A stretch of DNA of 64,000 bases from Treponema sp. GTDB lineage: Bacteria > Spirochaetota > Spirochaetia > Treponematales > Treponemataceae. The notes under the pieces are model-generated. The model saw only the letters and a list, made by a program, of their open reading frames with translations. It made no database searches and was not told the DNA's origin. How positions within the stretch are numbered: the first letter of the stretch is position 1; each line of letters opens with the position of its first letter. Shown here piece after piece: positions 6,349 through 35,685 of this stretch. A program made the position numbers and the translations under genes. The DNA is taken from assembly GCA_017534445.1 (NCBI GenBank), contig JAFXWC010000038.1:111138-175137 (forward strand). The letters are read 5' to 3'.

Positions 6349-6349
6349 G

Positions 6350-7842: not shown

Positions 7843-8653
7843 GGCTTTCCTCCACAAATTCAAGGCGGTGAGTAAGTTCATTTATCGTTTTGGTAAGGCG
7901 GTCCCTTTCCTTTTCAAGCTTGGTCTTGGGATCCGTCTCTCCGGCTTTCTTCTTCATCATTGCAATAACGCTGTCCGGGCTCTTTCCGTTTTTAATTGCT
8001 TCCTGGGCCTTTGCCCTTTCGTCCGGCTTTTTTATTCCCGCGACAATCTTCATGTTGTCAAAGCCAAGGTCTGCATCTTCTGTTGGCAAAGTACCAACTT
8101 GGGCTACCGTCTTTGCGGTGGTTCGCGGAATCTGCAAAACCCTGTCCAGATAATCCTCATAGCGGATGTTGGACTTTTCGCAAAGGGCATGTGCCTGAAT
8201 AAGCTTTTTGCCAAATTCCTGCATTAAACGGCCGTTCGGAACAATGTATTTTTCCCGGATTTCCTTGGTAAGTTCTTCCAGTTCCGGTGAAGCAGAAAGA
8301 TCTATCTTATAATAACCCTTCTGCTCAGCAATTTCCAGTAGCGCATGGAATTTTGCCCAGAAATAGTTGGTGTGGCTCCTGGCCTTGTGGGGAGGTTCCC
8401 TGCCGCCGTTAGCCTCTATTTCCTCTTCGTTTATAAGGTGATGGGTGTATTCGTGGACGGCTGTATACACAAGCTCACCGTCCGTCTTGAAATTCTTGTT
8501 GTGCAAAAGGATTTCACGGGTCTCCGGCTTGTAAAGACCGTTTACCCTCTTACTCTCCTTGCCTGTCATCGTAACAGAAAATTCAAGCTTTGACTCCTGA
8601 ATGTCAAGAAGCATATCTTTTATAGAAGCATTATCCATATATTCCATTCCCAC
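7829..8653 (-). CDS. Protein with HExxH metalloprotease-like motif
   Basis: A cytoplasmic-looking protein of about 270 residues. Near residue 67 it has VHEYTHHLI, an HExxH zincin-type motif, within a segment that resembles SprT/IrrE-like small metallopeptidases (VYTAVHEYTHHLINEEEIE). The C-terminal 45 residues are strongly helical and charged (KLEKERDRLTKTINELTHRL), consistent with a coiled coil. I do not recognise the whole protein. The start could be the GTG at 8653 or ATGs at 8647 and 8638; none has a clear ribosome binding site. It follows rsmE by 20 bases on the same strand. Confidence 0.65.
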   Translation of the reverse strand: MGMEYMDNASIKDMLLDIQESKLEFSVTMTGKESKRVNGLYKPETREILLHNKNFKTDGELVYTAVHEYTHHLINEEEIEANGGREPPHKARSHTNYFWAKFHALLEIAEQKGYYKIDLSASPELEELTKEIREKYIVPNGRLMQEFGKKLIQAHALCEKSNIRYEDYLDRVLQIPRTTAKTVAQVGTLPTEDADLGFDNMKIVAGIKKPDERAKAQEAIKNGKSPDSVIAMMKKKAGETDPKTKLEKERDRLTKTINELTHRLEFVEESLANL

Positions 8654-10279: not shown

Positions 10280-10711
10280 ATGGGAGACAAACTACTTTAT
10301 TTCGTAGCCGCAGGGGCATTTATTTTACTTATTCTTCTATTAAATTGGTACATAAAATGGAAGGCTTACGGCAAAGAGGAAGCGGAGGCTGCAAGGCGCA
10401 AGGCAGAAGCAAAAAAGGCTGCGCTAAAAGGGCTTATCGTTAACTGCCCACTCTGCAACAGCCTGCTTCTTCCCGGAGAAGATCTTGTAAGCCGCGTTTA
10501 CAGGCCAATGAATGTTCCCGACCAGCTGTGCACAATAAACGGTTGCCCCCACTGCTACCCCGTACCGGAAAAAGGCATAAAGCGCGAATGTCCGGTTTGC
10601 CACAAGACAGTCCCACTGGAAAACGGCCACCTTACAGCCCGCCTCTTTAACAAAAGCAACGGAAAAAAGCACGTAATCGTAACAGGCTGCAGCGAATGTG
10701 CAAAGCATTGA
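10280..10711 (+). CDS. Small membrane protein with two zinc-ribbon-like Cys clusters
   Basis: A 143-residue protein with one N-terminal membrane segment (LLYFVAAGAFILLILLLNWY) and a basic helical linker. The cytoplasmic part carries CPLC...CTINGCPHC and then CPVCHK...GCSEC, enough for two Zn-binding sites. I do not recognise the family. It is monocistronic, faces a long repeat-rich gap downstream, and has the composition of the surrounding chromosome. Confidence 0.7.
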   Translation: MGDKLLYFVAAGAFILLILLLNWYIKWKAYGKEEAEAARRKAEAKKAALKGLIVNCPLCNSLLLPGEDLVSRVYRPMNVPDQLCTINGCPHCYPVPEKGIKRECPVCHKTVPLENGHLTARLFNKSNGKKHVIVTGCSECAKH

Positions 10712-11280
10712 TATAGCGTTTACTGAAAAACTCTTTTCAAGGGAGAGCCCTTGGACCCCATAATTTGGAGGGAAGGAAAACCTCTACTCGGAAGCGGGTT
10801 TTCCTCCCCTCCAAACCACCTTCGACGGCACGCACTTGCTACCGTCTCATTTCCAGCACCGCTTAGGGGCCATATCGCTCAACGTTTCGCGATATGCCTA
10901 AGAACCCCATTTTTTTCCAAGAAACATTTTTTTTGAAATGTTCCCTTCGACGGGCTCAGGGAACGTAATTCTTTCTTGCTAAGAAATGTCGAGCCATGGA
11001 TGGCGGGTTAACAGCGTGCAGAATTGCGCAGCGATTCTGCAATCCTCAAAAAAATCCATGGAGGGATTTTTTTAGGTGTCCTACGCGGGATTGGAGGGGC
11101 GCGCGTAGCGCGTTGCAGAGCAATGGAGCCGAATGGCGGAACCCCGGAAAGCCCGTGACGCAAAAAAATGCCAAGTCGATTATAGCCAAGGAACAAATGG
11201 TAGAGCAGGCAAAAGTACCGTCCAATAAAGAAAAAAAGTAGAAAATTCAGGGGAAAATCTAAAAAAAACATAAAATTTGC
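10712..11280. repeat. Repeat-rich intergenic region between the zinc-ribbon gene and flaB
   Basis: No credible gene is seen in this 570-base stretch. It contains a long hairpin (10764-10815, arms TTTGGAGGGAAGGAAAACC and its near-complement), a short palindromic element CCCTTCGACGGGCTCAGGGA at 10942-10961, and an A/T-run hairpin AAAAAAATCCATGGAGGGATTTTTTTA near 11047-11073. It also has a family A repeat (GGGATTGGAGGGGCGCGCG, GTAGCGCGTTGCAGAGCAAT) at about 11080-11160. The blocks look like nested or adjacent dispersed repeats rather than decayed coding sequence. Confidence 0.7.
10764..10815. other. Long GC/AT hairpin
   Basis: The left arm TTTGGAGGGAAGGAAAACC pairs with the right arm GGTTTTCCTCCCCTCCAAA around a 14-base loop, with one or two interruptions. 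It is not followed by a T run on the plus strand, so a simple terminator for the gene upstream is uncertain. Confidence 0.6.
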
Positions 11281-13680: not shown

Positions 13681-14094
13681 TCATTTGCCCAAAAGCATGG
13701 CCTCCACCTTATCCAAAATCAAAAGGTCTGCAGGAAGCCACTTTACCGAACGCAAGTTTTCCTTTGTAAGCCAAGCCGCATTCTCGTGCTCCAGAAGCTC
13801 CAACTTTCCGCTAACGATTGTACACAAAATGCAGTGCATGGTAAGGTGGAATGCGGGATAGTCATACTCAACAAGACCCAAAACATTTTCTGCATGAACT
13901 TCCGTTGCAAGCTCCTCGCGGATTTCGCGCTCAATGCACTGTTCTGGACTTTCCCCATCTTCAATCTTACCGCCAGGAAATTCCCACCAGCCCTTCCAAT
14001 CTCCGTAACCGCGCTGGGTAGCAAAGACTTCTTTTTTGTTTGTAGCAGGGTTTGTGCGGATGATTACGGCTCCGCTAACTGTTATGGTTTTCAT
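13681..14094 (-). CDS. NUDIX hydrolase, MutT/8-oxo-dGTP diphosphatase-like
   Basis: A protein of 137 residues when started at the ATG at 14094 (the upstream in-frame ATG adds eight unconserved residues). The Nudix box GGKIEDGESPEQCIEREIREE plus L is complete. The N-terminal MKTITVSGAVIIRTN and the KGWWEFPGGK segment fit the MutT group, which removes oxidised guanine nucleotides. The C-terminal RSVKWLPADLLILD also fits. Isolated between repeats and a divergent DUF72 gene. Confidence 0.85.
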   Translation of the reverse strand: MKTITVSGAVIIRTNPATNKKEVFATQRGYGDWKGWWEFPGGKIEDGESPEQCIEREIREELATEVHAENVLGLVEYDYPAFHLTMHCILCTIVSGKLELLEHENAAWLTKENLRSVKWLPADLLILDKVEAMLLGK

Positions 14095-14151
14095 GCAGAC
14101 AGAATAACAGATTTCCAAGAAAAAATATAGAAAATGCGATAGACTGTAGTT

Positions 14152-14943
14152 ATGTCCGAACTATTGATTGGCACAAGCGGCTACGACTATCCCGAATGGA
14201 AGGGAACCTTTTACCCCGCAGACCTTAAGCGCAAAGATTTTCTTCCATATTATTCCACGGTCTTTAATGCGCTGGAAGTAAACAGCAGCTTTTACAGCAT
14301 GCCCACTTGCGAAAGACTGATCTCTTTTTGGGAACGTAGCGAAGGACGAATCAAATTCAGCATAAAAGCGAACAGGCTTCTGACACACGATATTTCCCCA
14401 AGCTGGAAAAATGCCGCAATAGATTTTAAGACTGCCCTTTCTCCACTGCAAGAAAAAGATTCCCTAAGCGCAGTGCTTTTTCAGTTTCCGCAAAGCTTTC
14501 ATTACACTGTAGAAAACAGAATCTACCTTGCCAAGCTGATAGAAGATTTTGCAGGATTCCCGGTTGTGGTGGAGTTCCGTCACAGAGAATGGATAAAGCC
14601 AAGCGTTTTTGAAGGTTTGGAAGAGCGAAAGGCGGGGATTGTGTTCTGTGATATGCCTATGTTAAGAAATTTGCCAGACGGCAAGGCTCTACGGACTCCG
14701 TTTGTAGGGGAAAATGCTTACATCAGGCTGCACGGTCGAAATGCGGATGCTTGGTATGCTCATGATTCATGCCACAACGGAAGTTCACGCTACAACTACG
14801 ACTATTCGGATCAAGAACTGAAAGAATTTGTGCCAGTAGTAAAAGAGGCACTGGAAGAAGAAAAGCAGGTGCAGATGTTTTTTAACAATCACCCCAACGG
14901 CAGCGGGGCAAGGAATGCAAAGAGATTTAGGGAGATGGTATAG
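14152..14943 (+). CDS. DUF72 (YecE-like) protein
   Basis: A 263-residue TIM-barrel-like protein of the DUF72 family: LLIGTSGYDYPEWKGTFYP at the start, FNALEVNSSFYSMP, VVEFRHREW, AYIRLHGRN and the C-terminal FFNNHPNGSGARNAKRF. The biochemical function of the family is not established. Length is normal. It is the last ordinary chromosomal gene before the AT-rich island. Confidence 0.85.
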   Translation: MSELLIGTSGYDYPEWKGTFYPADLKRKDFLPYYSTVFNALEVNSSFYSMPTCERLISFWERSEGRIKFSIKANRLLTHDISPSWKNAAIDFKTALSPLQEKDSLSAVLFQFPQSFHYTVENRIYLAKLIEDFAGFPVVVEFRHREWIKPSVFEGLEERKAGIVFCDMPMLRNLPDGKALRTPFVGENAYIRLHGRNADAWYAHDSCHNGSSRYNYDYSDQELKEFVPVVKEALEEEKQVQMFFNNHPNGSGARNAKRFREMV

Positions 14944-15099: not shown

Positions 15100-15150
15100 G
15101 TGCAAAAGAAATAGCGTTGTGATATAATAATATGAATTTATACTTGGGGG
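15100..15150 (+). promoter_or_regulatory. Putative promoter and ribosome binding site of the restriction operon
   Basis: A perfect -10 box TATAAT lies at 15123-15128, with a weak TGCAAA -35-like site 16 bases upstream. A GGGGG ribosome binding site at 15146-15150 is correctly spaced for the TTG at 15160, which opens the methyltransferase remnant rather than the intact methyltransferase. The preceding 100 bases show no gene. Confidence 0.5.
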
Positions 15151-15159
15151 TATTTTATC

Positions 15160-15279
15160 TTGCGTGCAATTGACTTCTTCTGCGGTGGTGGCGGAATGAC
15201 AAACGGACTCAAACAGGCAGAAATTGATGTCATTGCAGGTGCAGCTTTAGGCTTGAAAGCAAAGGAACGAAAGAGATGA
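15160..15279 (+). pseudogene. N-terminal remnant of a C5-cytosine DNA methyltransferase
   Basis: From the TTG at 15160 the frame reads a typical methyltransferase start with motif I (AIDFFCGGGGMTNGLKQA, then EIDVIAGA). It loses similarity after 27 codons and stops at 15277-15279, overlapping the ATG of the intact methyltransferase (ATGA at 15276). The expected continuation AGVD and motifs II-X are missing. It has its own GGGGG ribosome binding site. It is best read as the head of an older methyltransferase gene left after a deletion or gene replacement. It may now work as a coupled leader peptide. Confidence 0.75.
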
Positions 15280-16532
15280 TAAAGTATTTAGATCTCTTTG
15301 CTGGTGCAGGAGGACTTTCAGAAGGGTTTATACACGAGGGATTTACCCCAGTTGCTCATATAGAAATGAGTGAGGCTGCTTGTTTTACGCTAAAAACAAG
15401 GGCTGCCTTTCATTATTTGCAGTCTCAGAGTAATTTAGAACCTTACAAATTATATACTTCAGGAAAAACTTCTAGGAATGAGTTTTATTCTTCAATACCG
15501 ACAGAAATATTGGATTCCGTTATTTGCAAAGAAATAAGTGATGAAACAATCAATGAACTATTTCAGCAAATTGATAAAAGACTAAAGAAAGACTCCATTG
15601 ATTTAATAATTGGGGGGCCACCCTGTCAAGCATATTCCCTAGTTGGAAGAGCCAGAGATCCAAATCGTATGGAAAATGACAGAAGAAATTATCTCTTCAA
15701 GTACTATACTCGTTTTCTCGAAAAATATAAGCCAACTTTTTTTGTTTTTGAAAACGTTATGGGATTGCTGAGTGCGAAAGATAGGAATGGTGAGAAATAC
15801 TTTGATATTATGCGGAAGGAATTTGAAAACTGTGGCTACAAATTGAAATATGAAATACTCTCTGCAAATGAATTTGGCATTCCTCAGCATAGGAAACGTA
15901 TTATCTTAGTAGGGAAAAAAACAAACTCGGATTTTAATTTTCCGTTGCCAGAAAAATGGAATCCCCAAATAACTATAAATGATGTCTTTTCAGATTTACC
16001 GTCACTAAAATCTGGAGAAGGAAAAATATATCAATGTACTTTGAAAAAATCGCATACAAAATGGCTGGATGATGCTGAAATTAGAAATATAGATCTGCCA
16101 GTTACATTTCATATATCAAGACCGAATTCAAAACAAGATTTGGAGATTTATCGAAGAGCTGTTGACTTATGGGATAAAAAACAAAAGAGATTAAGTTATC
16201 TTGATTTGCCGCAAAAATTGCAGACCCACAAGAATACAAAATCTTTTCTCGACAGATTTAAAGTTGTTGCAGGAGACGAAAGCGCATCTCAAACTGTTGT
16301 GGCTCACATTGCAAAAGATGGGCATTATTATATTCATCCTGATATTACCCAGAATCGTTCTATTACGCCAAGGGAAGCTGCCAGATTACAAACATTCCCC
16401 GATGATTATTATTTTGAAAGCATCTCAGGGAAACCTAGTCGAACAGAGGCGTATAAGCAGATAGGAAATGCTGTTCCTGTTTTGCTGGCACAAAAAATTG
16501 CGACAAAACTGAAGGAGATTTGGGATGAGTGA
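15276..16532 (+). CDS. DNA (cytosine-5)-methyltransferase 1 of the island
   Basis: A 418-residue m5C methyltransferase with all key motifs: motif I DLFAGAGGLSEGF, motif IV GGPPCQAYS with the catalytic Cys at residue 117, motif VI FVFENVMG, motif VIII HRKRIILVGKK, and motifs IX-X REAARLQTFPDDY and KQIGNAVPV. It transfers a methyl group from SAM to C5 of cytosine in a specific site and should protect the host from the nucleases downstream. AT-rich with codon use unlike clpA or flaB. The stop overlaps the next gene by eight bases. A second, quite different methyltransferase follows at 19782, which suggests an asymmetric target with one enzyme per strand. Confidence 0.93.
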   Translation: MIKYLDLFAGAGGLSEGFIHEGFTPVAHIEMSEAACFTLKTRAAFHYLQSQSNLEPYKLYTSGKTSRNEFYSSIPTEILDSVICKEISDETINELFQQIDKRLKKDSIDLIIGGPPCQAYSLVGRARDPNRMENDRRNYLFKYYTRFLEKYKPTFFVFENVMGLLSAKDRNGEKYFDIMRKEFENCGYKLKYEILSANEFGIPQHRKRIILVGKKTNSDFNFPLPEKWNPQITINDVFSDLPSLKSGEGKIYQCTLKKSHTKWLDDAEIRNIDLPVTFHISRPNSKQDLEIYRRAVDLWDKKQKRLSYLDLPQKLQTHKNTKSFLDRFKVVAGDESASQTVVAHIAKDGHYYIHPDITQNRSITPREAARLQTFPDDYYFESISGKPSRTEAYKQIGNAVPVLLAQKIATKLKEIWDE

Positions 16533-18717
16533 TTCTGATGTTTTTAAAATTCGCCCAGCAGGAAGACATATTCTCACAATAGGAAGAGATTTAATTCAAG
16601 ATCCTTATGCAGCAGTCGTTGAACTTGTAAAAAATGCTTATGATGCTGATGCAACGAAAGTTACTATATCTTTCCTTAAGTATGTTACTTCAAGAGAAAC
16701 TTTGCTTGATGGAAGTGAAGAAATTCACCATGGAATAAAAATCATCATAGACGATGATGGACACGGAATGACTCGTTCTGTAGTTACTGATAAATGGATG
16801 GTTCCATCAACAGATGATAAACAAATTAGAAAAATGAGTCCTAATGGCAGAATTATGCAAGGTCGAAAAGGTATCGGACGCTATGCTTCTGCAATATTGG
16901 GCAATGACTTGCTTTTAAAAACTATCTCTGCCGAAGATAATAATCGAACTGAACTTTTAGTTAGATGGTCTGATTTTGAAACAGCAACATATTTGTCTGA
17001 TGTAGATATTTTGATAGAAACATCAGCAACATCTGAAGATGCTGGAACAAATCTTTTAATGACTGGCGATGAATCTTTTTTACAGGAATGGAATGATACT
17101 CAATTTAAGCAATTAAAAAAAGAATTGAAGAAATTGATGACTCCTGTAAAAGATACAAAAATTTCCCAAGATTCATCGTTCGATATTTATCTGACAATAA
17201 AAGGTTTTGATTCTGTTGATTTAGAAAATGAAAAGATAGAGCCATTCCCGCTTTTTAATTTATATGATTACAGGATTTCTGGAAAGATAAATGAAGATGG
17301 AAAAGGTTTGTTGGTATATGAAATGCAGAAGGCTCGAAATTCTTTGCCAGTAAATATAGAATTTAATTATGGTAAGCCAACAAAATGTGGAGCAGTCGAT
17401 TTTGATATAAGAGTTTTTGATAGGGAAAAAGAAGCTATAGATGACCTCATAAACAGGGGGTTAAAAGACGACTCTGGCAATTATATTGGGAAATTGGAAG
17501 CTCGTCGCTTATTAAATGAGAATAACGGAATTGGTGTTTATAGAAATGGTTTCAGAATAAGACCTTTGGGGGATCCGGATTTTGATTGGCTCGAATTAAA
17601 TAGAGATAGGGTTCAGAATCCATCTAAAAAATTAGGTTCTGATCAGGTTATTGGTATTGTAAGTGTTGAAAATGAAGAGAAATCTGGGTTAATAGAAAAA
17701 AGTGCGCGTGATGGCTTAAAAGAAAATGTTTCTTATGAATCCTTAAAGGAGCTTACAAAAGAAATCATTTCAAAAATAGAAGAAAGACGCTTTATCTATA
17801 GAAGTAAGGCTGGTATAAGTCGAAAAACATTAAAAGTTGAAAAAGAATTTGAAAGATTGTTTTCTTTCGATAATTTGAAAAAAAATGTGCAATCCTCATT
17901 GATTCGTGGTAGAGTTGATAAAACAACATCTTCTGAAATTATGGGGGCTATTGATGCTCAGGAAAAAGTGCAGAACGCTGCTGCTGAAGCCTTAAGAGAA
18001 ACTGTTGCTATTTATCAAGGTCAAGCAACGCTTGGAAAAATAGTAAATGTAATAATTCATGAAGGTCGTAAACCGCTGGATTTCTTTAAGAATCAAATTC
18101 CAATTTTTAAGAAATATTATGAACAATATGAAAAAGGTAAAATTGAAGTATTATCAACATTATATGATAAAGTTTTAAAAATAGCTGATAATTCTCAAGT
18201 TCTAACAAATTTGTTCAAAAAAATAGATCCTTTAGCAGCAGGGAAAAGAGGAAAAAAGAAACCCGAATTTATAAAGGCTGAAATTGAAAATGATTTTTCA
18301 GTTTTTGATTCTGAACTTACGAATATAGAATGGTCAGTTAAAATATCAGAAAATAAAGATGTTACTGTAGAATGTTGGAAACAAGATGTTTATTCTGTTT
18401 TTACAAATCTTATAGAAAACAGTATATTTTGGATGACAAAAATGAACGTACCTAAAAAAAAGATTTTTGTGGATATTCATGTGATAAATGATTCTGTTGA
18501 TTATATTGATTATAGAGATACAGGTCCAGGAATTGAAAAACATTTGATAGAAAGCGGCGTTATTTTTGATCCTGAGTTTACTACCAAAACAGAATGTGGG
18601 ACCGGTTTGGGGCTAAGTATAGCAGGTGAAGCTGCCCGACGTTTTGGTTATGATTTGAAGGCACTCTATTCAGAATCAGGGGCTTATTTTAGATTAGAAA
18701 GATTGGAGGATATTTAA
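16525..18717 (+). CDS. GHKL ATPase fused to a histidine-kinase core (MORC/Hsp90-like N domain)
   Basis: A 730-residue protein with two GHKL ATPase domains. The first (residues about 1-200) has the N box VVELVKNAYDADA (Glu33, Asn37), DDDGHGM at 76-82 and GRKGIGR at 113-119, as in MutL/MORC/Hsp90-type ATPases. A middle part of about 250 residues is unrecognised. Near residue 512 is VIIHEGRKPLDF, an H-box-like motif with a candidate phospho-acceptor His512. A second ATPase of histidine-kinase type follows: FTNLIENSIFW (Asn628, Glu631, Asn632), DTGPGI (665) and GTGLGLS (692). No membrane segment is seen. The start follows AAGGAG. Directly followed by a receiver-domain gene, so a phosphorelay inside the operon is likely. 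Confidence 0.82.
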   Translation: MSDSDVFKIRPAGRHILTIGRDLIQDPYAAVVELVKNAYDADATKVTISFLKYVTSRETLLDGSEEIHHGIKIIIDDDGHGMTRSVVTDKWMVPSTDDKQIRKMSPNGRIMQGRKGIGRYASAILGNDLLLKTISAEDNNRTELLVRWSDFETATYLSDVDILIETSATSEDAGTNLLMTGDESFLQEWNDTQFKQLKKELKKLMTPVKDTKISQDSSFDIYLTIKGFDSVDLENEKIEPFPLFNLYDYRISGKINEDGKGLLVYEMQKARNSLPVNIEFNYGKPTKCGAVDFDIRVFDREKEAIDDLINRGLKDDSGNYIGKLEARRLLNENNGIGVYRNGFRIRPLGDPDFDWLELNRDRVQNPSKKLGSDQVIGIVSVENEEKSGLIEKSARDGLKENVSYESLKELTKEIISKIEERRFIYRSKAGISRKTLKVEKEFERLFSFDNLKKNVQSSLIRGRVDKTTSSEIMGAIDAQEKVQNAAAEALRETVAIYQGQATLGKIVNVIIHEGRKPLDFFKNQIPIFKKYYEQYEKGKIEVLSTLYDKVLKIADNSQVLTNLFKKIDPLAAGKRGKKKPEFIKAEIENDFSVFDSELTNIEWSVKISENKDVTVECWKQDVYSVFTNLIENSIFWMTKMNVPKKKIFVDIHVINDSVDYIDYRDTGPGIEKHLIESGVIFDPEFTTKTECGTGLGLSIAGEAARRFGYDLKALYSESGAYFRLERLEDI

Positions 18718-19785
18718 ATGACAATTTTGCTCGTAGAAGATGATGTTCAATCTGTGGACTCTTGCAAAGAATCTGCTACTTTGTATGAGAAAGAAATTGT
18801 AATTAAAGTTGCAAAAAACTTAGTTGAAGCAAAATCATTATTTAATGATGAAATAGATACCGCCATTGTTGATATTAAGCTTGGAAATGTTGCAGATGCA
18901 GGTAATTCTGTAATCGAAGAGATTGAAAAATTAAGTCTTAGGATTCCAACCGTAATACATACAGGTACACCAGATAGTGTTCAAGCTAATGCCTTAAAAG
19001 TATTTGTTCGAGGTGAAAACACTTACGATGAAATTTTTGATTATTTGTTCGATGTTTATAATACTGGTATAAATGAAATCTTAGGAAGAAAAGGTTTGTT
19101 GGAACAGCAAATAAACAAATTCTATAATTCGGTTTTTATAAAAACACAAGATTCATGGATTGAAAACGGAAAGAATTATTCTACAGATGTAGTAAAAAAA
19201 GCCTTGTTAAGAAACGCAATTTACCATCTAGAGAATTTATTGGACGATGAAAATGAAAGGATGTTTTTGGAAGAGTTTTACTTGTATGATTCGGATAAAA
19301 ATCTTCATACTGGTTCAATAATAAAAAACAGAATGAGTGATAAGTATTATGTCCTCATTTCTCCTTCTTGTGATTTGGTCATACGAAAGAATGGAAATCG
19401 CAATGTTGATGTTTTTACATTATGTGAAATAGATTCTATTGAAAATCATGGACTTACATTACGATTAGAAAATGAACCTTCTTTAGGAAAAGAAAAAAGA
19501 AAAAATATTTCCACTATTTTATCGAATTCTAAAAATAGATATCACTGGATACCAGGAATAAAAGATTTCAAGGGAGGAATTCTTGACTTTACAAAAACAA
19601 TCTCTAGCGATGAATCTAATTTTGTGGAGAAATATACAATTCTTGAATATCGTATATCACCTCCATATATGAAAAATATATTATCCAGATTTTCTTCATA
19701 TTATGCTCGACAAGGTCAGCCTGACTTAGATGTTGATAGTTACTTAGATAAATTAAAGCTCATTTCAGATGGTGATAAAAAATGA
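18718..19785 (+). CDS. Receiver-domain protein with unknown C-terminal domain
   Basis: A 355-residue protein that starts on the base after the kinase stop codon. Residues 1-120 are a response-regulator receiver domain: acidic pair Asp8/Asp9 (LLVEDD), phospho-acceptor Asp52 (AIVDIKLG) and Thr82/Thr84 (VIHTGT). The conserved beta-5 lysine seems replaced (VFVRGEN, Arg98). The C-terminal 230 residues are not a DNA-binding output domain I know; they contain YYVLISPSCDLVIRKNG near residue 216. This fits the atypical receiver proteins found next to restriction genes. It overlaps the second methyltransferase by four bases (ATGA at 19782). It is presumably the partner of the upstream kinase. Confidence 0.75.
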   Translation: MTILLVEDDVQSVDSCKESATLYEKEIVIKVAKNLVEAKSLFNDEIDTAIVDIKLGNVADAGNSVIEEIEKLSLRIPTVIHTGTPDSVQANALKVFVRGENTYDEIFDYLFDVYNTGINEILGRKGLLEQQINKFYNSVFIKTQDSWIENGKNYSTDVVKKALLRNAIYHLENLLDDENERMFLEEFYLYDSDKNLHTGSIIKNRMSDKYYVLISPSCDLVIRKNGNRNVDVFTLCEIDSIENHGLTLRLENEPSLGKEKRKNISTILSNSKNRYHWIPGIKDFKGGILDFTKTISSDESNFVEKYTILEYRISPPYMKNILSRFSSYYARQGQPDLDVDSYLDKLKLISDGDKK

Positions 19786-20843
19786 TTTTTCGTTTAGGTG
19801 AACTTTTCTGTGGCCCTGGTGGAATTGCAAAAGGTGCTACAAGTGCAGATATAAATAATCCCGAATGGGGAATTACTCATCAGTGGGCAAATGATTATGA
19901 TGCCGATACATGCAAAACATACACTCGCAACATTTGTCCTGACAGACCAGGGTCTGTTGTTTGTGGTGATATTCGCAAATTGGATTTAAAAAAGCTATAT
20001 AAGATTGGTGATATCGATGCACTCGCATTTGGTTTTCCATGTAATGACTTTAGTGTCGTTGGTGAACAGAAAGGATTTGATGGCGAATTCGGTCCACTAT
20101 ATTCTTACGGTGTGAAAGTTTTAAAAGCCAAACATCCACAATGGTTTTTAGCTGAAAATGTTGGTGGATTAAAGAGTGCTAATGAAGGTAGGGCAATACA
20201 AACGATTTTTGATGCAATGCGAACCGCAGGTTATCGACTCTACCCAAACCTCTATAAATTTGAAGAATACGGCATTCCTCAGGCAAGACATCGAATTATT
20301 ATTGTTGGCATTCGTAATGATTTTCCATTTGATTTCCAAATTCCATCAACTGCACCATATGCAAATCTCGATGTTTCATGTCGAAATGCAATAGAGAATC
20401 CTCCAATTCCAGAAAATGCTGCGAATAATGAGAGAACTGCACAGTCAAGTTTAGTTGTTGAAAGACTTAATCATATTTTGCCAGGTCAGAATGCTTTTAA
20501 TGCTGATTTACCGGAGCATTTAAGGTTAAATGTAAAAGGTGCAAAAATGAGCCAGATTTATAAGAGACTTGACCCGACTTTGCCGTCTTATACGATTACC
20601 GGTTCTGGTGGCGGCGGTACTCATGTGTATCATTGGTCAGAACCTCGTGCATTGACAAATCGTGAAAGAGCAAGACTTCAAACATTTCCAGATAATTATA
20701 TATTTGAGGGAAGCAAAGAATCTGTAAGAAAACAGATAGGAATGGCGGTTCCGTGCAATGGGGCTAGAATTATTTTTGAAGCAATTCTTAAAACATTTGC
20801 AGGAATTGAATATGAATCGATGAATGCAAATATAGAGGAGTAA
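19782..20843 (+). CDS. DNA (cytosine-5)-methyltransferase 2 of the island
   Basis: A 353-residue m5C methyltransferase: motif I LFCGPGGIAKGA, motif IV GFPCNDFSVVG with catalytic Cys87 (GFPCN instead of the usual GPPCQ), motif VI LAENVGG, motif VIII ARHRIIIVG, and ERARLQTFPDNY with KQIGMAVP near the end. It is not a duplicate of methyltransferase 1: the catalytic loop, recognition region and length differ. Translationally coupled to the receiver gene. Together with methyltransferase 1 it is expected to modify the site cut by the downstream nucleases. Confidence 0.92.
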   Translation: MIFRLGELFCGPGGIAKGATSADINNPEWGITHQWANDYDADTCKTYTRNICPDRPGSVVCGDIRKLDLKKLYKIGDIDALAFGFPCNDFSVVGEQKGFDGEFGPLYSYGVKVLKAKHPQWFLAENVGGLKSANEGRAIQTIFDAMRTAGYRLYPNLYKFEEYGIPQARHRIIIVGIRNDFPFDFQIPSTAPYANLDVSCRNAIENPPIPENAANNERTAQSSLVVERLNHILPGQNAFNADLPEHLRLNVKGAKMSQIYKRLDPTLPSYTITGSGGGGTHVYHWSEPRALTNRERARLQTFPDNYIFEGSKESVRKQIGMAVPCNGARIIFEAILKTFAGIEYESMNANIEE

Positions 20844-20848
20844 TAATC

Positions 20849-21859
20849 ATGTATACAGAAAATTTGGGAAATGAAATTCTTCTAAATCCTGTTCAAGCAT
20901 TTGGATGTACTTCACTAAAAATTATTACCGGTTATACGGATATTGAATGCATTTATAGACATTTAATTGCTTTGTCAGATATGGGGAAAACAAATTCCTT
21001 TTCTGTTGATATGATTTTAGGCATGACTAATAGTAATGGATTGTCAGAAAAAAAACATAAAGATATCAACCGCCTTATAGCAAATGTAAATAGTAATTCA
21101 AAAATGCCTGCTTTTATTTGTAGATATAAAGTAAGCGGTGCTGATATTCATTCAAAAGTCTATGTTTGGTTCAAAGAGGATGAACCTGTGTTAGCTTTCT
21201 GCGGTTCAGCAAATTATTCAACAAACGCATTTACAAAACGCAGAGAATGTATGACTAATTGCGAGTCAATAGAGGCAAATAAATACTTTAATTCTCTAGT
21301 TCCCGATACAATCCTTGCAACGGATCCAAGTGTGAAAAATAAAATAAACTTTACAAAAAAGAAAGTCACAGATGTGGAAATTGATGCATATAATCTTGAA
21401 AATCTTTCATGGGATATGTTCAAGGATAAAGTTCCTCTTGATACTTGTAAGGTTTCACTTCTCACTGCTGATGGAAAAGAGACGGGTTTTGGTTCTGGAT
21501 TAAACTGGGGAATAAGACAAAACGGAACAAAGCGAGATCGGGATCAGGCTTATATTCCTTATAATGCTCAAGATAAAAAAGAGGGCTTTTTTCCTCTAAA
21601 ACAAAATTCTGAAATAAAGCATAATCCTTTGTTTAAGGTTGTAACAAAAGATTTTCCTCCATTTTTTATGAGAATTGCACAAGCTGGAAATAAAGGAATT
21701 CATACGGCTGAAAGTAATGCTTTGTTGGGACAATTCTTTAGGCAGAAATTAGGAGTCCCAACCGGAACTTTTATAACAAAAGAAATGCTTGAAAACTATG
21801 GGAAAACATATGTTGTTTTTAAGAAATACGATAATGATATATATTTGATGGATTTTTAG
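20849..21859 (+). CDS. NgoFVII-like restriction endonuclease (PLD nuclease plus B3-like domain)
   Basis: A 336-residue protein. The N-terminal half is a phospholipase-D-type nuclease: ADIHSKVYVW with His101 and Lys103, then FCGSANYSTNAF with Asn122, one HxK...N set as in NgoFVII/BfiI-type enzymes that work as dimers without metal. The C-terminal half (about 200-336) resembles the B3-like DNA-recognition domain of that family (SGLNWGIR, DQAYIP, LGQFFRQKLGVPTGTFITKE). The same domain recurs at the N-terminus of the McrB protein next door. It should cut unmodified DNA at a specific site. Five bases after methyltransferase 2; in the same operon. Confidence 0.82.
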   Translation: MYTENLGNEILLNPVQAFGCTSLKIITGYTDIECIYRHLIALSDMGKTNSFSVDMILGMTNSNGLSEKKHKDINRLIANVNSNSKMPAFICRYKVSGADIHSKVYVWFKEDEPVLAFCGSANYSTNAFTKRRECMTNCESIEANKYFNSLVPDTILATDPSVKNKINFTKKKVTDVEIDAYNLENLSWDMFKDKVPLDTCKVSLLTADGKETGFGSGLNWGIRQNGTKRDRDQAYIPYNAQDKKEGFFPLKQNSEIKHNPLFKVVTKDFPPFFMRIAQAGNKGIHTAESNALLGQFFRQKLGVPTGTFITKEMLENYGKTYVVFKKYDNDIYLMDF

Positions 21860-21877
21860 AATCGGGAGGTTTTTATT

Positions 21878-23599
21878 ATGTCTTTTATTGATACAAAAAA
21901 CAGTTTTGAACAAAAAGATGGGGAGATAAGAAAGCATGAGATAAAACCTTCTACTTATTCTATTGGAGAAGATCTTCTTCAGATAAATACATGGAATACT
22001 CCAACTCATTCTGACCAAGTTATTCAATTTGATATGCAAGGATTAAAGGATTTAATCAAAATCATAAAAACTTGGTATCCTTCTGTGCTAAAAAAAGATG
22101 TATTGACTTTTGATGTTCCCTTATTCGATGAAAATGGAAAATTGCAATATTGCTTTCGATGGGGTTTTGCCGCTGATGGAATAACGCCTAGAGATGCTTC
22201 GAGAACTGGAAATGAAGCATATATTGCTTTGCCACAAGAAATTTATAATTCAGACTTTTATCCTAAGAATGGAATCGAATTCAATATAAAAACAGATGAT
22301 GATAGAACATTATGTTTTGTCCGTGCTCAATCAAAGACCGAAGGAGATGACAATGGTCATTCTCTCGAAACAACTAAAGCTAATGGACAGGACGGAAATA
22401 AGGAACTAGGAAAATATTTGCGATACAGACTTGGAATAGATTCCGGAATCCCAATTACAAAGGATGCTGTAAGTAAATATGGAAATGATAAAATAACATT
22501 TTCAAAAGATTCAGATGGTAATTATTTTCTTAGCTTTAAACCAGGTATAAAGTTTGAAAAACTGCCTCTCATCCTCTACGGCCCACCAGGAACAGGTAAA
22601 ACTTACAAAATGCAGCACGAATACATCGACAAGTTCGCTAAAGAAGACCGTTTTATCACAACCTTCCATCAGTCTTTCAGTTACGAAGAATTTGTTGAAG
22701 GGCTAAAACCTGTTCTTGAAGACCCCATCAAGGAAAAGGAATCTTCTGACACAGGTGAACCTTGCCCTGTACCTTCGGATGTAAAATACAAAATTGAAAA
22801 AGGCATTTTCTACAAGGCCTGCGAGCGGGCAGCTGAAATTGCAGGATATAAATTAAATAAAGACGAATCGGGAACTCCATTGAAAAAGTGTTTGGAAGAT
22901 GCAGAGCGTTCCACAAAAATGGACGATGCAATTAAAAATAAAAAAATCGTTCTTCTCTGCATTGACGAAATAAACCGTGCCAATGTGTCGGCAGTGTTCG
23001 GTGATTTGATTTCTCTGATTGAGCCGAGCAAAAGAATCGGAGCAAAAAACGAAATGGTTGTGCAATTGCCTTATTCAAAAGAAGCTTTCGCTGTTCCTGC
23101 AAATCTTATGATTGTAGGAACAATGAACACAGCCGACCGTTCAATTCAGATTCTTGATTCTGCTTTGCGCCGTCGTTTCCGTTTTGAAGAGCTTTTGCCA
23201 AATTACGTTGTAATTCAGAATGAAACTGCAAAATCAATTCTTAAGGCTATAAATGCACGCATTCGTTGTCTGCTCGATAAAGACCATCAGATTGGTCATT
23301 CATATTTTATAGATGCAAAAAGCGAGTTGGATATCTTTAATGCAATAAAAGATTGTGTAATTCCTTTGCTTGAAGAATATTTCTATAACGATGCTCAGAA
23401 AATCAGACAGATTTTGAATGAGAATGATGATTCTGCAACAAATTTCTATGTAAGGGATGCAGAAGCTCAAGATGCATTAGAAAAGATGCAGAATGATTAT
23501 GATGACGAAAAAGAATTCTATATGCTCAATTCCAAGCTTGAAACTGTAAATGATGATTCATTGGCACAAGGTTTTCTTTCTCATATAATCAACGGCTAG
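21878..23599 (+). CDS. mcrB: McrB-like GTPase restriction subunit with B3-like target domain
   Basis: A 573-residue protein. Residues about 75-230 form a DNA-recognition-like domain related to the C-terminal part of the PLD nuclease before it (shared blocks FRWGF, NEAYIALP, ELGKYLRYRLGI, PITKD). Residues 230-540 are the McrB AAA+ motor: Walker A GPPGTGKT (235-242), Walker B LLCIDEINRAN (Asp363, Glu364) and the GTP-specificity motif MNTADRS (416-422), then LDSALRRRFRFEEL. LlaJI R1 has the same B3-plus-McrB layout. GGGAGG precedes the start. Base composition changes near 22560: the N-terminal part is AT-rich, the motor part richer in G+C. Confidence 0.9.
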   Translation: MSFIDTKNSFEQKDGEIRKHEIKPSTYSIGEDLLQINTWNTPTHSDQVIQFDMQGLKDLIKIIKTWYPSVLKKDVLTFDVPLFDENGKLQYCFRWGFAADGITPRDASRTGNEAYIALPQEIYNSDFYPKNGIEFNIKTDDDRTLCFVRAQSKTEGDDNGHSLETTKANGQDGNKELGKYLRYRLGIDSGIPITKDAVSKYGNDKITFSKDSDGNYFLSFKPGIKFEKLPLILYGPPGTGKTYKMQHEYIDKFAKEDRFITTFHQSFSYEEFVEGLKPVLEDPIKEKESSDTGEPCPVPSDVKYKIEKGIFYKACERAAEIAGYKLNKDESGTPLKKCLEDAERSTKMDDAIKNKKIVLLCIDEINRANVSAVFGDLISLIEPSKRIGAKNEMVVQLPYSKEAFAVPANLMIVGTMNTADRSIQILDSALRRRFRFEELLPNYVVIQNETAKSILKAINARIRCLLDKDHQIGHSYFIDAKSELDIFNAIKDCVIPLLEEYFYNDAQKIRQILNENDDSATNFYVRDAEAQDALEKMQNDYDDEKEFYMLNSKLETVNDDSLAQGFLSHIING

Positions 23600-23608
23600 G
23601 GCTAACTG

Positions 23609-25501
23609 ATGTCAAAGAAAACGCCTGTCTTTATTCATGAATTTGGTATTCTCAGCGACAAAAATCAGAAGCGAGTTTGTGCTGATGAAGAAAAGCAGCT
23701 TTCACACGAGACTTTTCAGAATCTCTGGAATTTCATTCTTGAAAACAGAGGCGGGCAAGATGCAGATGAAGTAATGTCCGTTCATTCAAGAGGTGGCCGT
23801 CAATACATAAAGACTGGCCGATATGTCGGAACTATTCAGACCAAAGACGGGCAGATAATTGAGATACTTCCAAAGATTTATAAAAGCGGTGATAAAACCG
23901 AAAGTGATGAAAAGCTTTGCCGACGTTTTTTCTTGCGGATGCTGTATTCTTTTCAACATTCAGAGGCAAAGTCTTTTCAAGAGGCAAGCTTAAACACTGT
24001 TGAAAATTTTCCTATTCTTGAAGTTTATATCAGCCGTTATCTTTCTGAAGTAGAGCAACTTTTAACAAGCGGAATCAAAAAGAACTACATAATAATAGAA
24101 GAAAATCAAAGATTTCTGAAAGGCAAACTGTTAATCAGCAAGCAAATTTCAAAAAATTGCGTGGATAAGACTAAGTTTGCAGTGCGTTATTCTAAGTACA
24201 TTGAAAACATTCCGCAGAATAGAATTATCGTTTCAACTTTGCAGAAGCTTTCAAAGATAACGCAAAATTCTGTAAATGCTGCACGGTGCTATAATTTGCA
24301 ATCGTTTTTTTCTGACATTCCTGCAAGTGTAAACATAAATTCAGATTTGCAGTTGTCAATGCGTTCAAACAGGCTGTTTGCAACATATCAGAATCTTATG
24401 CAATGGAGCAGTCAGTTTCTATTGAACAAAGGATTCACAACGTTCAGCGGCAATCATGTAAATCAGTCATTGCTGTTTAGTGCAGAAAAATTGTTTGAAA
24501 GCTTTATAGCGCACCTTTTTAAAAAATATGCAGGTGAGTATGTAGTTTCAAATCAGCATTCAAAATATTTTCTTGTAGATAAATATGGTGATACAGAACA
24601 TGGGAAATTCCGCTTACGTCCGGATATTGTAGTTGAGTCAAAAGATAGCGGAAACTTTTCTAATTATGACACAATCATAATTGATACAAAATGGAAAAAT
24701 CTGGATTCAAACGCACCTGACAAAAACTATCTGATTGATATAAAAGACATGTATCAGTTGTATGCTTATGGTCAGAAGTATCATCTTGGGGACAGCTATT
24801 TTCTTGATATAATTCCGAAACTTGTTCTCGTATATCCGTATACAGAAAAGTTTCAGGCAGAATTAAAGCCTTTTGTTTATGAAGAGATAAAAGCAAAATA
24901 TGGTCTAAAGCTTGTTGTTTATCCGTTTAATCTTGCTGATGAAGGAAATCATGGAGAAGGTTATAAACGGCAGATTGGCGAGATAATGCAACTTGCTGCC
25001 AATCCAGATAAATTACCAGCTTCTAATCCAACGAAACCGATGCAGGTATTCGAAAATGAAAGTGAGATTCTTACAGAAGATTACAAAATTAATTCTGATG
25101 ATAGATATATGTTGCTTGGATATTATAGAAATGAAGCACATCTTAATTGGATTTTGCAGAATAAACTTTATAATGTCCGACTTGGTGACAGACATGGTGC
25201 ATTGCGGGGAATTGATTTAAGTATTACTCCGTCAAGAATTGTTTTGTATACAAATGGAAAGAATGAAGAACCTGTTGGAATAAAAATCTTTACTGTCAAT
25301 CAATCCGAAGTTCTCGTCGCAGATAAACAGAAAATGGAAGAACTTAAATATCCTGCAGGAAGTAAAGGTATTGGCGAATCATACAAATTATTTTCTCTAG
25401 GAACTGAAATTAAAAATCATAAGAAACTTGATATAAGGAAGATAAAAACAGATAGTGGCAGAAGCGAGAAAAGTTATCGGCCGCTTTTTGTGAAGTATTA
25501 G
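23609..25501 (+). CDS. mcrC: McrC-like nuclease subunit with C-terminal extension
   Basis: A 630-residue partner of McrB. The McrC core covers about residues 1-480, with a beta-rich N-terminal part and a PD-(D/E)xK nuclease: LRPDIVVE (Asp339) and IIIDTKWKN (Asp359, Lys361). McrC proteins join McrB hexamers and cut DNA after GTP-driven translocation. The last 140 residues (from EDYKINSDDRYMLLGYY) are an extra domain that I do not recognise, with RLGDRHGALRGIDLS and PVGIKIFTV. The gene starts nine bases after mcrB. It fits a LlaJI R2-type subunit. Confidence 0.87.
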   Translation: MSKKTPVFIHEFGILSDKNQKRVCADEEKQLSHETFQNLWNFILENRGGQDADEVMSVHSRGGRQYIKTGRYVGTIQTKDGQIIEILPKIYKSGDKTESDEKLCRRFFLRMLYSFQHSEAKSFQEASLNTVENFPILEVYISRYLSEVEQLLTSGIKKNYIIIEENQRFLKGKLLISKQISKNCVDKTKFAVRYSKYIENIPQNRIIVSTLQKLSKITQNSVNAARCYNLQSFFSDIPASVNINSDLQLSMRSNRLFATYQNLMQWSSQFLLNKGFTTFSGNHVNQSLLFSAEKLFESFIAHLFKKYAGEYVVSNQHSKYFLVDKYGDTEHGKFRLRPDIVVESKDSGNFSNYDTIIIDTKWKNLDSNAPDKNYLIDIKDMYQLYAYGQKYHLGDSYFLDIIPKLVLVYPYTEKFQAELKPFVYEEIKAKYGLKLVVYPFNLADEGNHGEGYKRQIGEIMQLAANPDKLPASNPTKPMQVFENESEILTEDYKINSDDRYMLLGYYRNEAHLNWILQNKLYNVRLGDRHGALRGIDLSITPSRIVLYTNGKNEEPVGIKIFTVNQSEVLVADKQKMEELKYPAGSKGIGESYKLFSLGTEIKNHKKLDIRKIKTDSGRSEKSYRPLFVKY

Positions 25502-25513
25502 GAGGTACAGCCA

Positions 25514-26629
25514 ATGAACAAACCGTATCAAATACCAGAACTTCCGTTAGCTTTCAATTTTGAATCTGTCACAATTTACAAGCAGCTTACTCTTGCATCC
25601 CGTGCGCTTGCCGAGTTAAAAGGTGTCGCAAAAACAATACCGAATGAAACTATTTTGCTCAATACACTTGTTTTACAAGAAGCCAAAGATAGTTCCGAAG
25701 TCGAAAATATCGTTACTACGCAAGATGAACTCTACAAGGCAGATTTGGATTTAAAAGAAACTGTGACGAAGGCCGCTCAAAAGGAAGTTATCCGTTACAG
25801 GCAGGCCATGCACACAGGGTTTGATTTGGTACGAAAAAATAAACTTTTAACAAATGCTGTAATAAAACAGATTCAGCAGGAACTTGAAGAAAATACTGCC
25901 GGATTTCGTGCTGTGCCGGGAACGACATTGAAAAATAATCAGAATGAAACTGTTTACACTCCACCGCAGACAAAAGATGAGATTGTTCGGTTGATGACAA
26001 ATCTTGAACGCTTTATAAATGACAGTTCGGTATGTGATCTAGACCCGCTTGTAAAACTTCCGATTATTCATCATCAGTTTGAAAGCATTCATCCTTTTTA
26101 TGACGGAAACGGCAGAACCGGCCGCATAATCAATATTTTGTATCTTGTTGCAAATGACTTGCTTGATTTGCCGATTCTCTATCTTAGCCGTTATATAAAT
26201 CATAATAAAGCTGAATACTATCAATTGATTCAGAAAATACGCGACAATGCCCCTGATAACGAAAACGATTGGGAAAATTGGATTGTATTTATGCTGAAAG
26301 GTGTTGAACTGACGGCAAAGGAAACAGTCGTTTTGATTAACGAGATAAAGAATCTTATGCAGGATTATAAAATGAAGCTAAGACCTTTGTTCGGCTCAAA
26401 ATATAATCATGAGCTTTTGAACAACCTTTTCCGTCACCCATATACTAAGATTGAATACATTATGCGGGATTTGGAAGTAACTAGACTGACGGCAACTAAA
26501 TATCTTGATGAACTGGTTTCTGCCAATCTTGTCATTAAGATAAAAGTTGGAACTAGCAATTATTATATAAATCAGCAATTAGTAGATTTGTTCATAAATC
26601 AAGCAAATTTATATAATTTAAATGTATAA
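25514..26629 (+). CDS. Fic family AMPylase-like protein with inhibitory helix and winged helix
   Basis: A 371-residue Fic protein. The active-site motif HPFYDGNGR is complete (His193 to Arg201), so AMP or another nucleotide part could be transferred to a target protein. An N-terminal inhibitory motif S/TxxxE/N is present as SSEVEN (60-65), which marks the class where the inhibitory helix lies in the same chain before the Fic core. The C-terminal 60 residues look like a winged helix (MRDLEVTRLTATKYLDELV). It follows mcrC by 12 bases with a strong AGGAGG site and so belongs to the restriction operon by position. Targets are unknown. Confidence 0.87.
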   Translation: MNKPYQIPELPLAFNFESVTIYKQLTLASRALAELKGVAKTIPNETILLNTLVLQEAKDSSEVENIVTTQDELYKADLDLKETVTKAAQKEVIRYRQAMHTGFDLVRKNKLLTNAVIKQIQQELEENTAGFRAVPGTTLKNNQNETVYTPPQTKDEIVRLMTNLERFINDSSVCDLDPLVKLPIIHHQFESIHPFYDGNGRTGRIINILYLVANDLLDLPILYLSRYINHNKAEYYQLIQKIRDNAPDNENDWENWIVFMLKGVELTAKETVVLINEIKNLMQDYKMKLRPLFGSKYNHELLNNLFRHPYTKIEYIMRDLEVTRLTATKYLDELVSANLVIKIKVGTSNYYINQQLVDLFINQANLYNLNV

Positions 26630-26733
26630 AAAATCAAAATTTTTATACATTTAAGCTGCCTAATGTATAGAAATTTCAAATTTTTATACATTACAATAGG
26701 AGAATGTTAAAAAAACATAAATTTTTTAACATT
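26621..26733. repeat. Three consecutive AT-rich inverted repeats after fic
   Basis: Three perfect inverted repeats follow each other. IR1 has AATGTATAAAAA (26621-26632) and TTTTTATACATT (26640-26651) and overlaps the fic stop codon. IR2 has TAATGTATA (26661-26669) and TATACATTA (26685-26693). IR3 has AATGTTAAAAAA (26703-26714) and TTTTTTAACATT (26722-26733). The first could act as a terminator; the shared TGTATA...TATACA core also suits operators. A fourth related repeat lies at 26908-26937. Confidence 0.75.
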
Positions 26734-33768: not shown

Positions 33769-34173
33769 CTAAAGTTCCCTAGTTTCTATTGCCACACTAG
33801 GATTCAGATTCTTAACCGCAATCTGAAAGTCATCTTCGTAGATAATCTCGCCCGGCACTTCGCTGCATTTGGAAATATAGAGCTTTAGGCCGTATTTTTT
33901 TGCCATGGCACGGTAAAAGTCCATCTGAGCGTAAATGTCGTTTCCCTGGGGATTATCCTTGAACCAGGTGGTGGCATGGTCTGGATTTCCCTGTTCATAA
34001 AAGGGCGGAACCGGCAAAACCTTTTCAAAATACTCTCGGTTTTTCCAGTATTCAGCGGTCTCTTCCTGGGTAAGAGTCTTTGCCTCCACCAGCTTTCCAA
34101 TTGCAGTAAACAAGCCCCTTGGCTGCTGGGTAATGTAGGCAATGTCTTTTGTGTGCACCCTAAAATATGTCAT
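33769..34173 (-). CDS. Conserved-looking small protein of unknown function
   Basis: A 134-residue soluble protein, MTYFRVHTKDIAYITQQPRG..., rich in aromatic residues, with TWFKDNPQGNDIYAQMDFYR in the middle. I recognise no family. It follows the lipoprotein gene by 11 bases on the same strand, and together with the PIN module upstream forms a compact four-gene leftward group, typical of accessory genes. Confidence 0.55.
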   Translation of the reverse strand: MTYFRVHTKDIAYITQQPRGLFTAIGKLVEAKTLTQEETAEYWKNREYFEKVLPVPPFYEQGNPDHATTWFKDNPQGNDIYAQMDFYRAMAKKYGLKLYISKCSEVPGEIIYEDDFQIAVKNLNPSVAIETREL

Positions 34174-34184
34174 AGTTCCTCGCT

Positions 34185-35447: not shown

Positions 35448-35460
35448 AACTTCTCCGGTG

Positions 35461-35685
35461 TTAAACTTTTTTTCTAGCATAGGCAGAAGCTTTTTGCAAA
35501 AAATTTTCAACAGATTCATCCTGAGTAAAATATTCTTTATGCCACTTTGTATAATCGAAGCGTTCCCTCAGAATTGCAGCAATAAAACTTTCTGCTTCTA
35601 CAATGCCCATGTGCTTTACAAGACATTCCATTCCGCGGGACATAAGTTCAACGGTTGAAGTCGGACTATATGTTATATCTGCCAT
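35461..35685 (-). CDS. Putative antitoxin paired with PIN toxin
   Basis: A 74-residue protein, helical and moderately acidic (MADITYSPTSTVELMSRGM...). Its ATG shares one base with the stop codon of the PIN gene (TAATG at 35684-35688), so the two are strictly coupled. The toxin-first order differs from most VapBC loci. There is no clear DNA-binding fold. The role is inferred from the pairing. Confidence 0.6.
   Translation of the reverse strand: MADITYSPTSTVELMSRGMECLVKHMGIVEAESFIAAILRERFDYTKWHKEYFTQDESVENFLQKASAYARKKV

Follow-up and report, generated by a model that had tools for sequence, protein, structure and literature searches.

The question raised by this locus is whether adjoining methyltransferase (MTase), histidine kinase (HK), receiver, nuclease and Fic genes make up one restriction system or an assembly of units with separate histories. 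The stretch analysed, referred to here as the window, comprises 64,000 nucleotides of a Treponema sp. genome (assembly GCA_017534445.1, contig JAFXWC010000038.1, positions 111,138 to 175,137) and holds an operon of eight co-directional open reading frames (ORFs; 15276–26629, + strand), with junctions that range from an 8-base overlap to an 18-base gap. Pfam names seven of the eight genes, the unnamed one encoding the receiver protein (RR), and the catalytic motifs, inspected by eye in the translations, are intact. A first-pass annotation had proposed a single composite restriction system, with two nucleases for one target and a signalling layer. The gene content and order that it described were confirmed, and the LlaJI-like core (two 5-methylcytosine (m5C) MTases, an McrB with a B3-like domain, and McrC), the NgoFVII-type PLD nuclease (PF09565 plus PF20731) and the kinase/receiver pair are all present. 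The operon as a whole looks like a chimera of units, namely a triad of the MTase M1, HK and RR, a second group of the MTase M2, the PLD nuclease, McrB and McrC, and a Fic gene. We predict that the triad is a signalling module open to exchange, whose role would be to switch or back up phage DNA cleavage, and on balance we think that it is functionally coupled to the nuclease unit.

Exchange of blocks at the locus

In genome G209 (locus L101), the genes from M2 to McrC are 66–89% identical to those of the window by region (M2 85–89% in amino acid sequence by region, McrC 86%), except that McrB residues 1–100 are only 41% identical, whereas the genes of the triad are far apart: 18% identity for the kinase, 17% for the receiver and 31% for the MTase, with 19% in the MTase recognition region. 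At the DNA level, homology with L101 covers the DUF72 gene that forms the left chromosomal flank (14152–14943, + strand; Pfam DUF72 E 3.4e-55) and positions 15120–15179, and resumes only at 19777, from where it extends to 25510 with one gap (21858–22109); the triad therefore differs as one block, gene for gene. The sole further DNA match is one of 43 bases between M1 and the M2 of L101.

A different arrangement is found in genome G231 (locus L216), where the order is MTase (356 amino acids)–kinase (716)–receiver (352)–M2–McrB–DUF1016_N–McrC, with an McrB of the NxD type. Its DNA homology with the window comprises 15157–15266 and 19771–20845, and the two M2 genes share 86% nucleotide identity. 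Ahead of M1 the window contains 39 codons with a TTG start (15160–15279, + strand), whose stop codon overlaps the M1 start (ATGA), and which tblastn aligns with the 356-amino-acid MTase of L216 and L217 (77.8% over 36 amino acids) and with L215 (74% over 35). This appears to be a 5' remnant of a G231-type MTase, so that the locus very probably once held a G231-type triad that has since been replaced. The conserved leader at the start of the locus (15117–15188, + strand) is common to several loci though the MTase that follows differs, with blastn matches to L226 (15117–15188, 83%), L101 (15120–15179, 82%), L217 (15144–15239, 85%) and L216 (15157–15266, 81%); in alignments read by eye, L226 and L101 have shorter pieces of the same MTase start before yet other MTases. 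The leader holds a promoter-like site (15117–15144), sites of this kind being no more frequent in the region than expected by chance (45 found, 46.1 expected). The DUF72 gene flanks the locus in the window, in L101 (G209), in L217 (G207) and in L106 (G106), with upstream blastn matches of 67–84%. At 0.30–0.38, the GC content of the operon genes is below that of the genes on either side (0.45 and 0.48), which fits horizontal gain.

Another exchange border lies within McrB, at about 22565, where the GTPase domain starts. Loci L103, L104 and L106 share the McrB GTPase–McrC tail, from 22565–22567 to 25502–25508, with N-termini that are other or missing and with other genes ahead. In L103 and L105, the block before the McrBC tail consists of an N6/N4-type MTase, an SMC-like ATPase (654 amino acids), a gene of about 205 amino acids and a nuclease-like gene; in L106, the DUF72 site before the tail has a subtilase (Peptidase_S8) gene (5635–7854, + strand) that adjoins, as judged by eye, an AAA ATPase gene.

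Triad, restriction unit and Fic

M1 (15276–16532; all operon genes lie on the + strand) is an m5C MTase with a GPPC motif (PF00145, E 1.7e-64), the best PADLOC match being DrmMII-type (E 2.6e-166). HK (16525–18717) joins an N-terminal MutL/MORC-like GHKL ATPase (PF13589, HATPase_c_3, E 4.5e-15) to a C-terminal histidine-kinase ATPase (PF02518, HATPase_c, E 1e-13), and its closest named match, at 82%, is from a Treponema metagenome-assembled genome (MAG). His512 (codon 18058–18060) is invariant across 29 aligned kinases. In RR (18718–19785), according to AF2 models and alignments, a receiver domain (residues 1–122), with Asp52 present in all 72 aligned RRs, is followed by a helical linker and an output domain (about residues 192–333; 19291–19716). 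The output domain is predicted to adopt a MazF/CcdB fold (AF2 models with pLDDT 88.2 and 88.4, and fold matches) and agrees in this predicted fold with the MazF/PemK/CcdB superfamily. RR has no PemK Pfam match (PF02452), and MazF homology by sequence profile was considered and dropped, as the profile comparison gives it no support. The output-domain family yields 811 matches at E 1e-3 and no Pfam model matched it; a PDB sequence search with the domain returned only one chance-level match. Invariant among 71 RR sequences are Glu186, Gly199, Cys218, Asp219, Pro279, Lys319, Arg331, Gln332, Gly333 and Pro335.

On sequence evidence, M2, the PLD nuclease, McrB and McrC are a separate LlaJI-like unit. 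M2 (19782–20843; PF00145, E 1.2e-72) precedes the NgoFVII-type nuclease (20849–21859), with its PLD domain (HSK...GSAN, His101; PF09565, E 3.6e-28) and C-terminal B3-like DNA-binding domain (PF20731, E 1.2e-19); a PDB sequence search found no relatives of this nuclease. The McrB-type GTPase (21878–23599) has an N-terminal B3-like domain (PF20731, E 4.9e-17), an AAA_5 domain (PF07728, E 8.4e-15; PDB 6ut3 McrB, E 2.3e-56), a Walker A motif GPPGTGKT and the signature MNTAD, that is NxxD, and the McrC-type nuclease subunit (23609–25501) carries RPDIVV...IIDTKWK (PF10117, E 4.4e-74). Homology links the B3-like domain of the PLD nuclease to that of McrB (28% identity over 123 columns, BLASTP E 2e-8), which suggests that the two proteins may read related sites; it is for this pair only that the earlier proposal of two nucleases for one target finds support. 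A classic LlaJI layout is found in L102 (G220), where an M1-like MTase, M2, McrB and McrC stand without kinase, receiver or PLD nuclease. No McrC was found in the viral contigs.

The Fic gene (25514–26629; HPFYDGNGRTGR) has the Fic motif and SoFic domains (PF13784, PF02661, PF21248; PADLOC SoFic, E 5.3e-117), with an NCBIfam score of 347 bits against the equivalog cut-off of 550. We judge it probably a passenger: the DNA held in common with the other McrC loci stops at 25502–25510, at the McrC stop, and the gene lies outside every block shared between loci, which counts against its inclusion in the system by the first-pass annotation. An integral Fic subunit is likewise unlikely on the ground that the Fic genes of L103, L104 and L107 are of another type. 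Overlapping the end of the gene are two adjacent 41-nucleotide repeats (26621–26702, 71% alike), each of the form AATGTATA...TATACATT, possibly paired hairpins or an operator.

The kinase with a small receiver-sized gene also recurs before a third gene of another kind. In L107 (G270), a 202-amino-acid gene (10360–10965, – strand) between receiver and McrB is caspase-like by eye (HG ... SCLSACQ), with no Pfam match. In twelve other sets the third gene, of about 190–222 amino acids, has by eye HNH-like C..C, DH and N residues; eight of these lie on viral contigs (L133, L138, L141, L144, L148, L152, L162 and L168), the others being L218, L220, L221 and L222. A caspase-like third gene as a general trait of sets of kinase, receiver and a gene of about 208 amino acids was therefore rejected, as it holds, by eye, for the L107 protein only.

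The company kept by kinase and McrB

The relatives of the window's triad were surveyed in the best 80 of 162 loci, a sample that leans to near relatives and in which many contigs are short and several loci are cut by contig ends (ORFs were called greedily, with a minimum of 70–80 amino acids). RR follows HK in 79 of the 80, the contig of the one locus without RR (L006) ending there, and an m5C MTase directly precedes HK in 58. In 54 relatives the presumed target-recognition region of M1 is as conserved as the core, at 40–60% identity, whatever nuclease adjoins (54 MTases of 380–480 amino acids, drawn from the 66 genes found at position –1; we set the region at residues 236–350), and M1 thus most likely has a target different from that of M2, the PLD nuclease and McrB. 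With M1 and the M2 unit exchanged independently of each other, a composite system with a single target was rejected as the principal explanation. The neighbourhood survey, set beforehand as the check on the proposal of one composite system, also goes largely against that proposal for the window's kinase family, a PLD nuclease being matched in none of the 80 loci. Beside the triad of L003 (7287–13574), from a Fibrobacteraceae MAG, Fic pieces recur: a MutH-domain gene precedes that triad, and downstream of it lie a fragment from the C-terminus of a SoFic protein and a RE_LlaJI gene.

The case for coupling comes from the host's own family, for which 274 genomes were searched. Close relatives of the window HK occur in only one of them, as is also true of the L101 and L107 kinases (E 1e-60 or better), while McrB relatives occur in 18 (E 1e-30 or better) and RE_LlaJI genes (PF09563) in 39. 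A search with a profile of diverse kinases (29 sequences) found at least 18 proteins with an N-terminal GHKL domain, a lower bound because at most four candidates per genome were scored. For nine of these 18 (G000, the window genome, and G209, G270, G231, G087, G191, G166, G240 and G220), an McrB-type GTPase lies downstream on the same strand, and in eight of the nine it is followed, on that contig, by an McrC-type nuclease; the G087 contig stops within McrB. No downstream McrB is seen for the remaining nine (G033, G207, G271, G036, G145, G138, G194, G004 and G030); the G207 contig ends inside the gene after RR, so that none would be visible, G004 has an McrB/McrC pair nearby on the opposite strand that was excluded from the count, and the kinases of G036, G004 and G030 look broken or short. 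The nine McrB-linked kinases represent five or six families, 17–26% identical apart from the G191/G087 type against the G166/G240/G220 type (35%), and in every set compared the order MTase–kinase–receiver is kept. At an assumed chance rate near McrB of 3.2%, nine of 18 has a probability of 1e-9, and at 10%, 2e-5; the rate is our assumption. Without the window and without G209 and G270, whose kinases are rows of the search model that had previously been found beside McrB, six of 15 has a probability of 4e-6 at 3.2% and 0.002 at 10%. The earlier claim of a signalling layer tied to restriction thus stands in outline for these GHKL kinases, the tie being rare in the window's own kinase family.

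It is quite possible, though we hold it the less probable account, that two independent defence systems simply abut, a stand-alone M1–HK–RR system and a LlaJI-like unit being co-transcribed by accident in an insertion hotspot. In its favour, 77 of the 80 triad loci show no McrBC-type genes and often have Vsr, a glycosylase or other nucleases, the same McrBC tail is found behind other genes and without a kinase match in L102–L106, and the M1 recognition region stays with the triad. Chance abutment sits poorly with the recurrence of differing triads upstream of, and co-oriented with, McrB-type GTPases, with the 4-base overlap of the RR and M2 genes in the window, and with the constant gene order.

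Several observations weigh against a coupled, phosphorelay-driven module. An McrB/McrC-type gene stands beside the triad in only three of the 80 loci: L003, whose RE_LlaJI match scores 24.7 bits (cut-off 23.6) and for which no McrB partner was found; L004, with AAA_5 and DUF2357/PDDEXK_7; and L008, where an McrBC pair lies some 1.3 kb past Vsr. Any coupling would accordingly belong to the lineage and not to the kinase family. One or two events may account for five of the nine kinases linked to McrB (G087, G191, G166, G240 and G220), a kinship that weakens the independence assumed in the probabilities. Proximity by itself is no proof of cooperation, given that defence genes gather in islands. 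In G209 the receiver gene ends 206 bp before M2, without the overlap seen in the window. The phospho-accepting His is unaligned in four of 12 kinases (the L224–L227 type, that is the G191/G166/G240/G220 type), which have other His residues nearby, and a relay is less sure in these. The predicted likeness of the RR output domain to MazF is one of fold, and hhalign gave a probability of 0.1% against a weak MazF profile of 12 sequences grown from one motif-picked seed. Finally, three of the eight loci L101–L108 have a shorter Fic gene of another type near McrC, directly after it in L104 and a few genes later in L103 and L107, and Fic may thus be more than a passenger.

We think it unlikely that the genes form one LlaJI-type system in which M1 and M2 methylate opposite strands of one asymmetric site and the kinase and receiver were added as a regulator, an account close to the first-pass annotation. 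LlaJI itself has two m5C MTases with McrB- and McrC-like subunits (PMC1459862), and the M1 relative of L102 (47% identical over residues 1–235 and 39% in the recognition region) stands directly with M2–McrB–McrC and no kinase; against this, M2, the PLD nuclease and the B3 domain of McrB stay similar between window and G209 while M1 is replaced, and M1 recognition regions are alike in the 54 triads with differing neighbours. Least likely is that HK and RR serve M1 as an accessory in transcription or DNA repair, in the manner of Vsr, for example by coping with m5C deamination damage or mis-methylation, and take no direct part in phage defence. In its favour, a co-directional gene within 250 bp after RR, present in 43 loci, falls in the Vsr cluster in 18 and the HhH-GPD cluster in five (cluster names rest on Pfam checks of one or a few members, one each for these two), Vsr repairs mispairs arising from m5C deamination (PMC8011034), and the kinase begins with a GHKL domain like that of MutL.

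On the reading that we prefer, that of an interchangeable signalling module coupled to the nuclease unit, M2 would protect host DNA, the PLD nuclease and McrBC would cut, and M1 with the kinase would watch a second site, the relay acting through the MazF-fold output by growth arrest or by tuning of the nucleases. A bolder version, which we put forward only tentatively, makes the triad a whole immune unit that marks, senses and signals: M1 would mark one fixed site, the MutL-like kinase would read unmarked or damaged DNA, and the phosphorelay would fire a receiver-borne MazF-fold toxin. Such units would swap as cartridges before McrBC loci, giving cutting as a first line and phosphate-triggered growth arrest as a second, each independently swappable.

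Surroundings, precedents and significance

Elsewhere in the window, a second GC-poor patch (0.368 in 34001–36000) contains a 444-amino-acid ORF (34188–35519, – strand) without any Pfam match, and a NUDIX gene (13684–14118, – strand) is matched by similar DNA at two places in both L103 and L106, as well as in L104, L108 and L225. No Rfam families or tRNAs were found in the window, and no McrBC was seen in L255, which has a kinase 33% identical.

The window McrC matches PF10117 and not PF09563 (RE_LlaJI), for which the window genome has no match at E 1e-10. BsuMI of B. subtilis is comparable in having a LlaJI-type McrC, PF09563 matching in the B. subtilis control genome; as a precedent for PLD plus McrBC it was considered and dropped, as PF09565 has no match in B. 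subtilis. Among described systems, LlaJI of Lactococcus lactis resembles the window (PF00145 in both MTases) in that a pair of m5C MTase genes precedes the genes for McrB-like and McrC-like subunits (PMC1459862), and LlaJI-type systems have a site-specific B3-type McrB N-terminus, as in the Helicobacter pylori homologue (PMC7680126), comparable with PF20731 plus AAA_5 here; LlaJI differs in lacking the kinase, the receiver, the PLD nuclease and Fic. The CglI/NgoAVII (NgoFVII-type) systems likewise have an m5C MTase followed by a PLD plus B3 nuclease with an HxK motif, and their nucleases do not cut without a helicase-like ATPase (PMC4267653). A Pfam scan of the eight operon genes and two flanking genes found no such ATPase gene.

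Closest to the triad is the HEF_HK/Response_reg_2 two-component-like pair, found with m5C MTases and Vsr (PMC8011034): shared with the triad are a kinase made up of HATPase_c_3, a DHp-like region and HATPase_c, an adjoining receiver gene, an m5C MTase upstream and the frequent presence of Vsr. PF19191 and PF19192, however, do not match the window pair at a limit of E 10 (HMMER filters drop most weak matches); genome searches with the two models were empty everywhere and, having had no positive control, carry no weight alone. The predicted MazF-fold output and the McrBC unit are the window's own, and McrB, LlaJI and NgoFVII have no occurrence in the main text of PMC8011034. A 2024 paper, in a single sentence, reports for many NxD McrB GTPases an association with MTases and often also with two-component genes of the same operon, and announces a further publication; it calls the two-component genes a distinguishing trait of NxD GTPases, with associations not completely confined to groups (PMC11090510). 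The combination of MTase, two-component genes and McrBC in one operon is thus shared with the window, and L216 and L004 fit the NxD group, with the GTPase motif NIDE and a DUF2357/PDDEXK_7 McrC, whereas the window differs in its NxxD GTPase with a B3 domain and in its PLD nuclease. Our literature search, with subscription papers and preprints mostly outside it, gave no description of the exact gene set or of triad exchange; the earlier claim of novelty holds in part, the association of MTase and two-component genes with NxD McrB GTPases having already been noted.

MORC/paraMORC restriction systems also combine GHKL ATPases with cytosine MTases, nucleases and Vsr in their operons, but their description, in the parts consulted, mentions neither a C-terminal kinase nor a receiver partner, and the word 'receiver' has no occurrence in the main text (PMC2292703). 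The role of such GHKL proteins in bacterial immunity was posed as a question in 2008 (PMC2292703), and, if our reading is true, one operon would provide a concrete test of it. The predicted MazF fold would give a mechanistic handle on the output domain of a family with hundreds of proteins. Restriction is usually pictured as always on. If our reading is true, restriction in a whole lineage would have a built-in phosphorelay, and that phosphorelay would be a cartridge changed independently of the nuclease.

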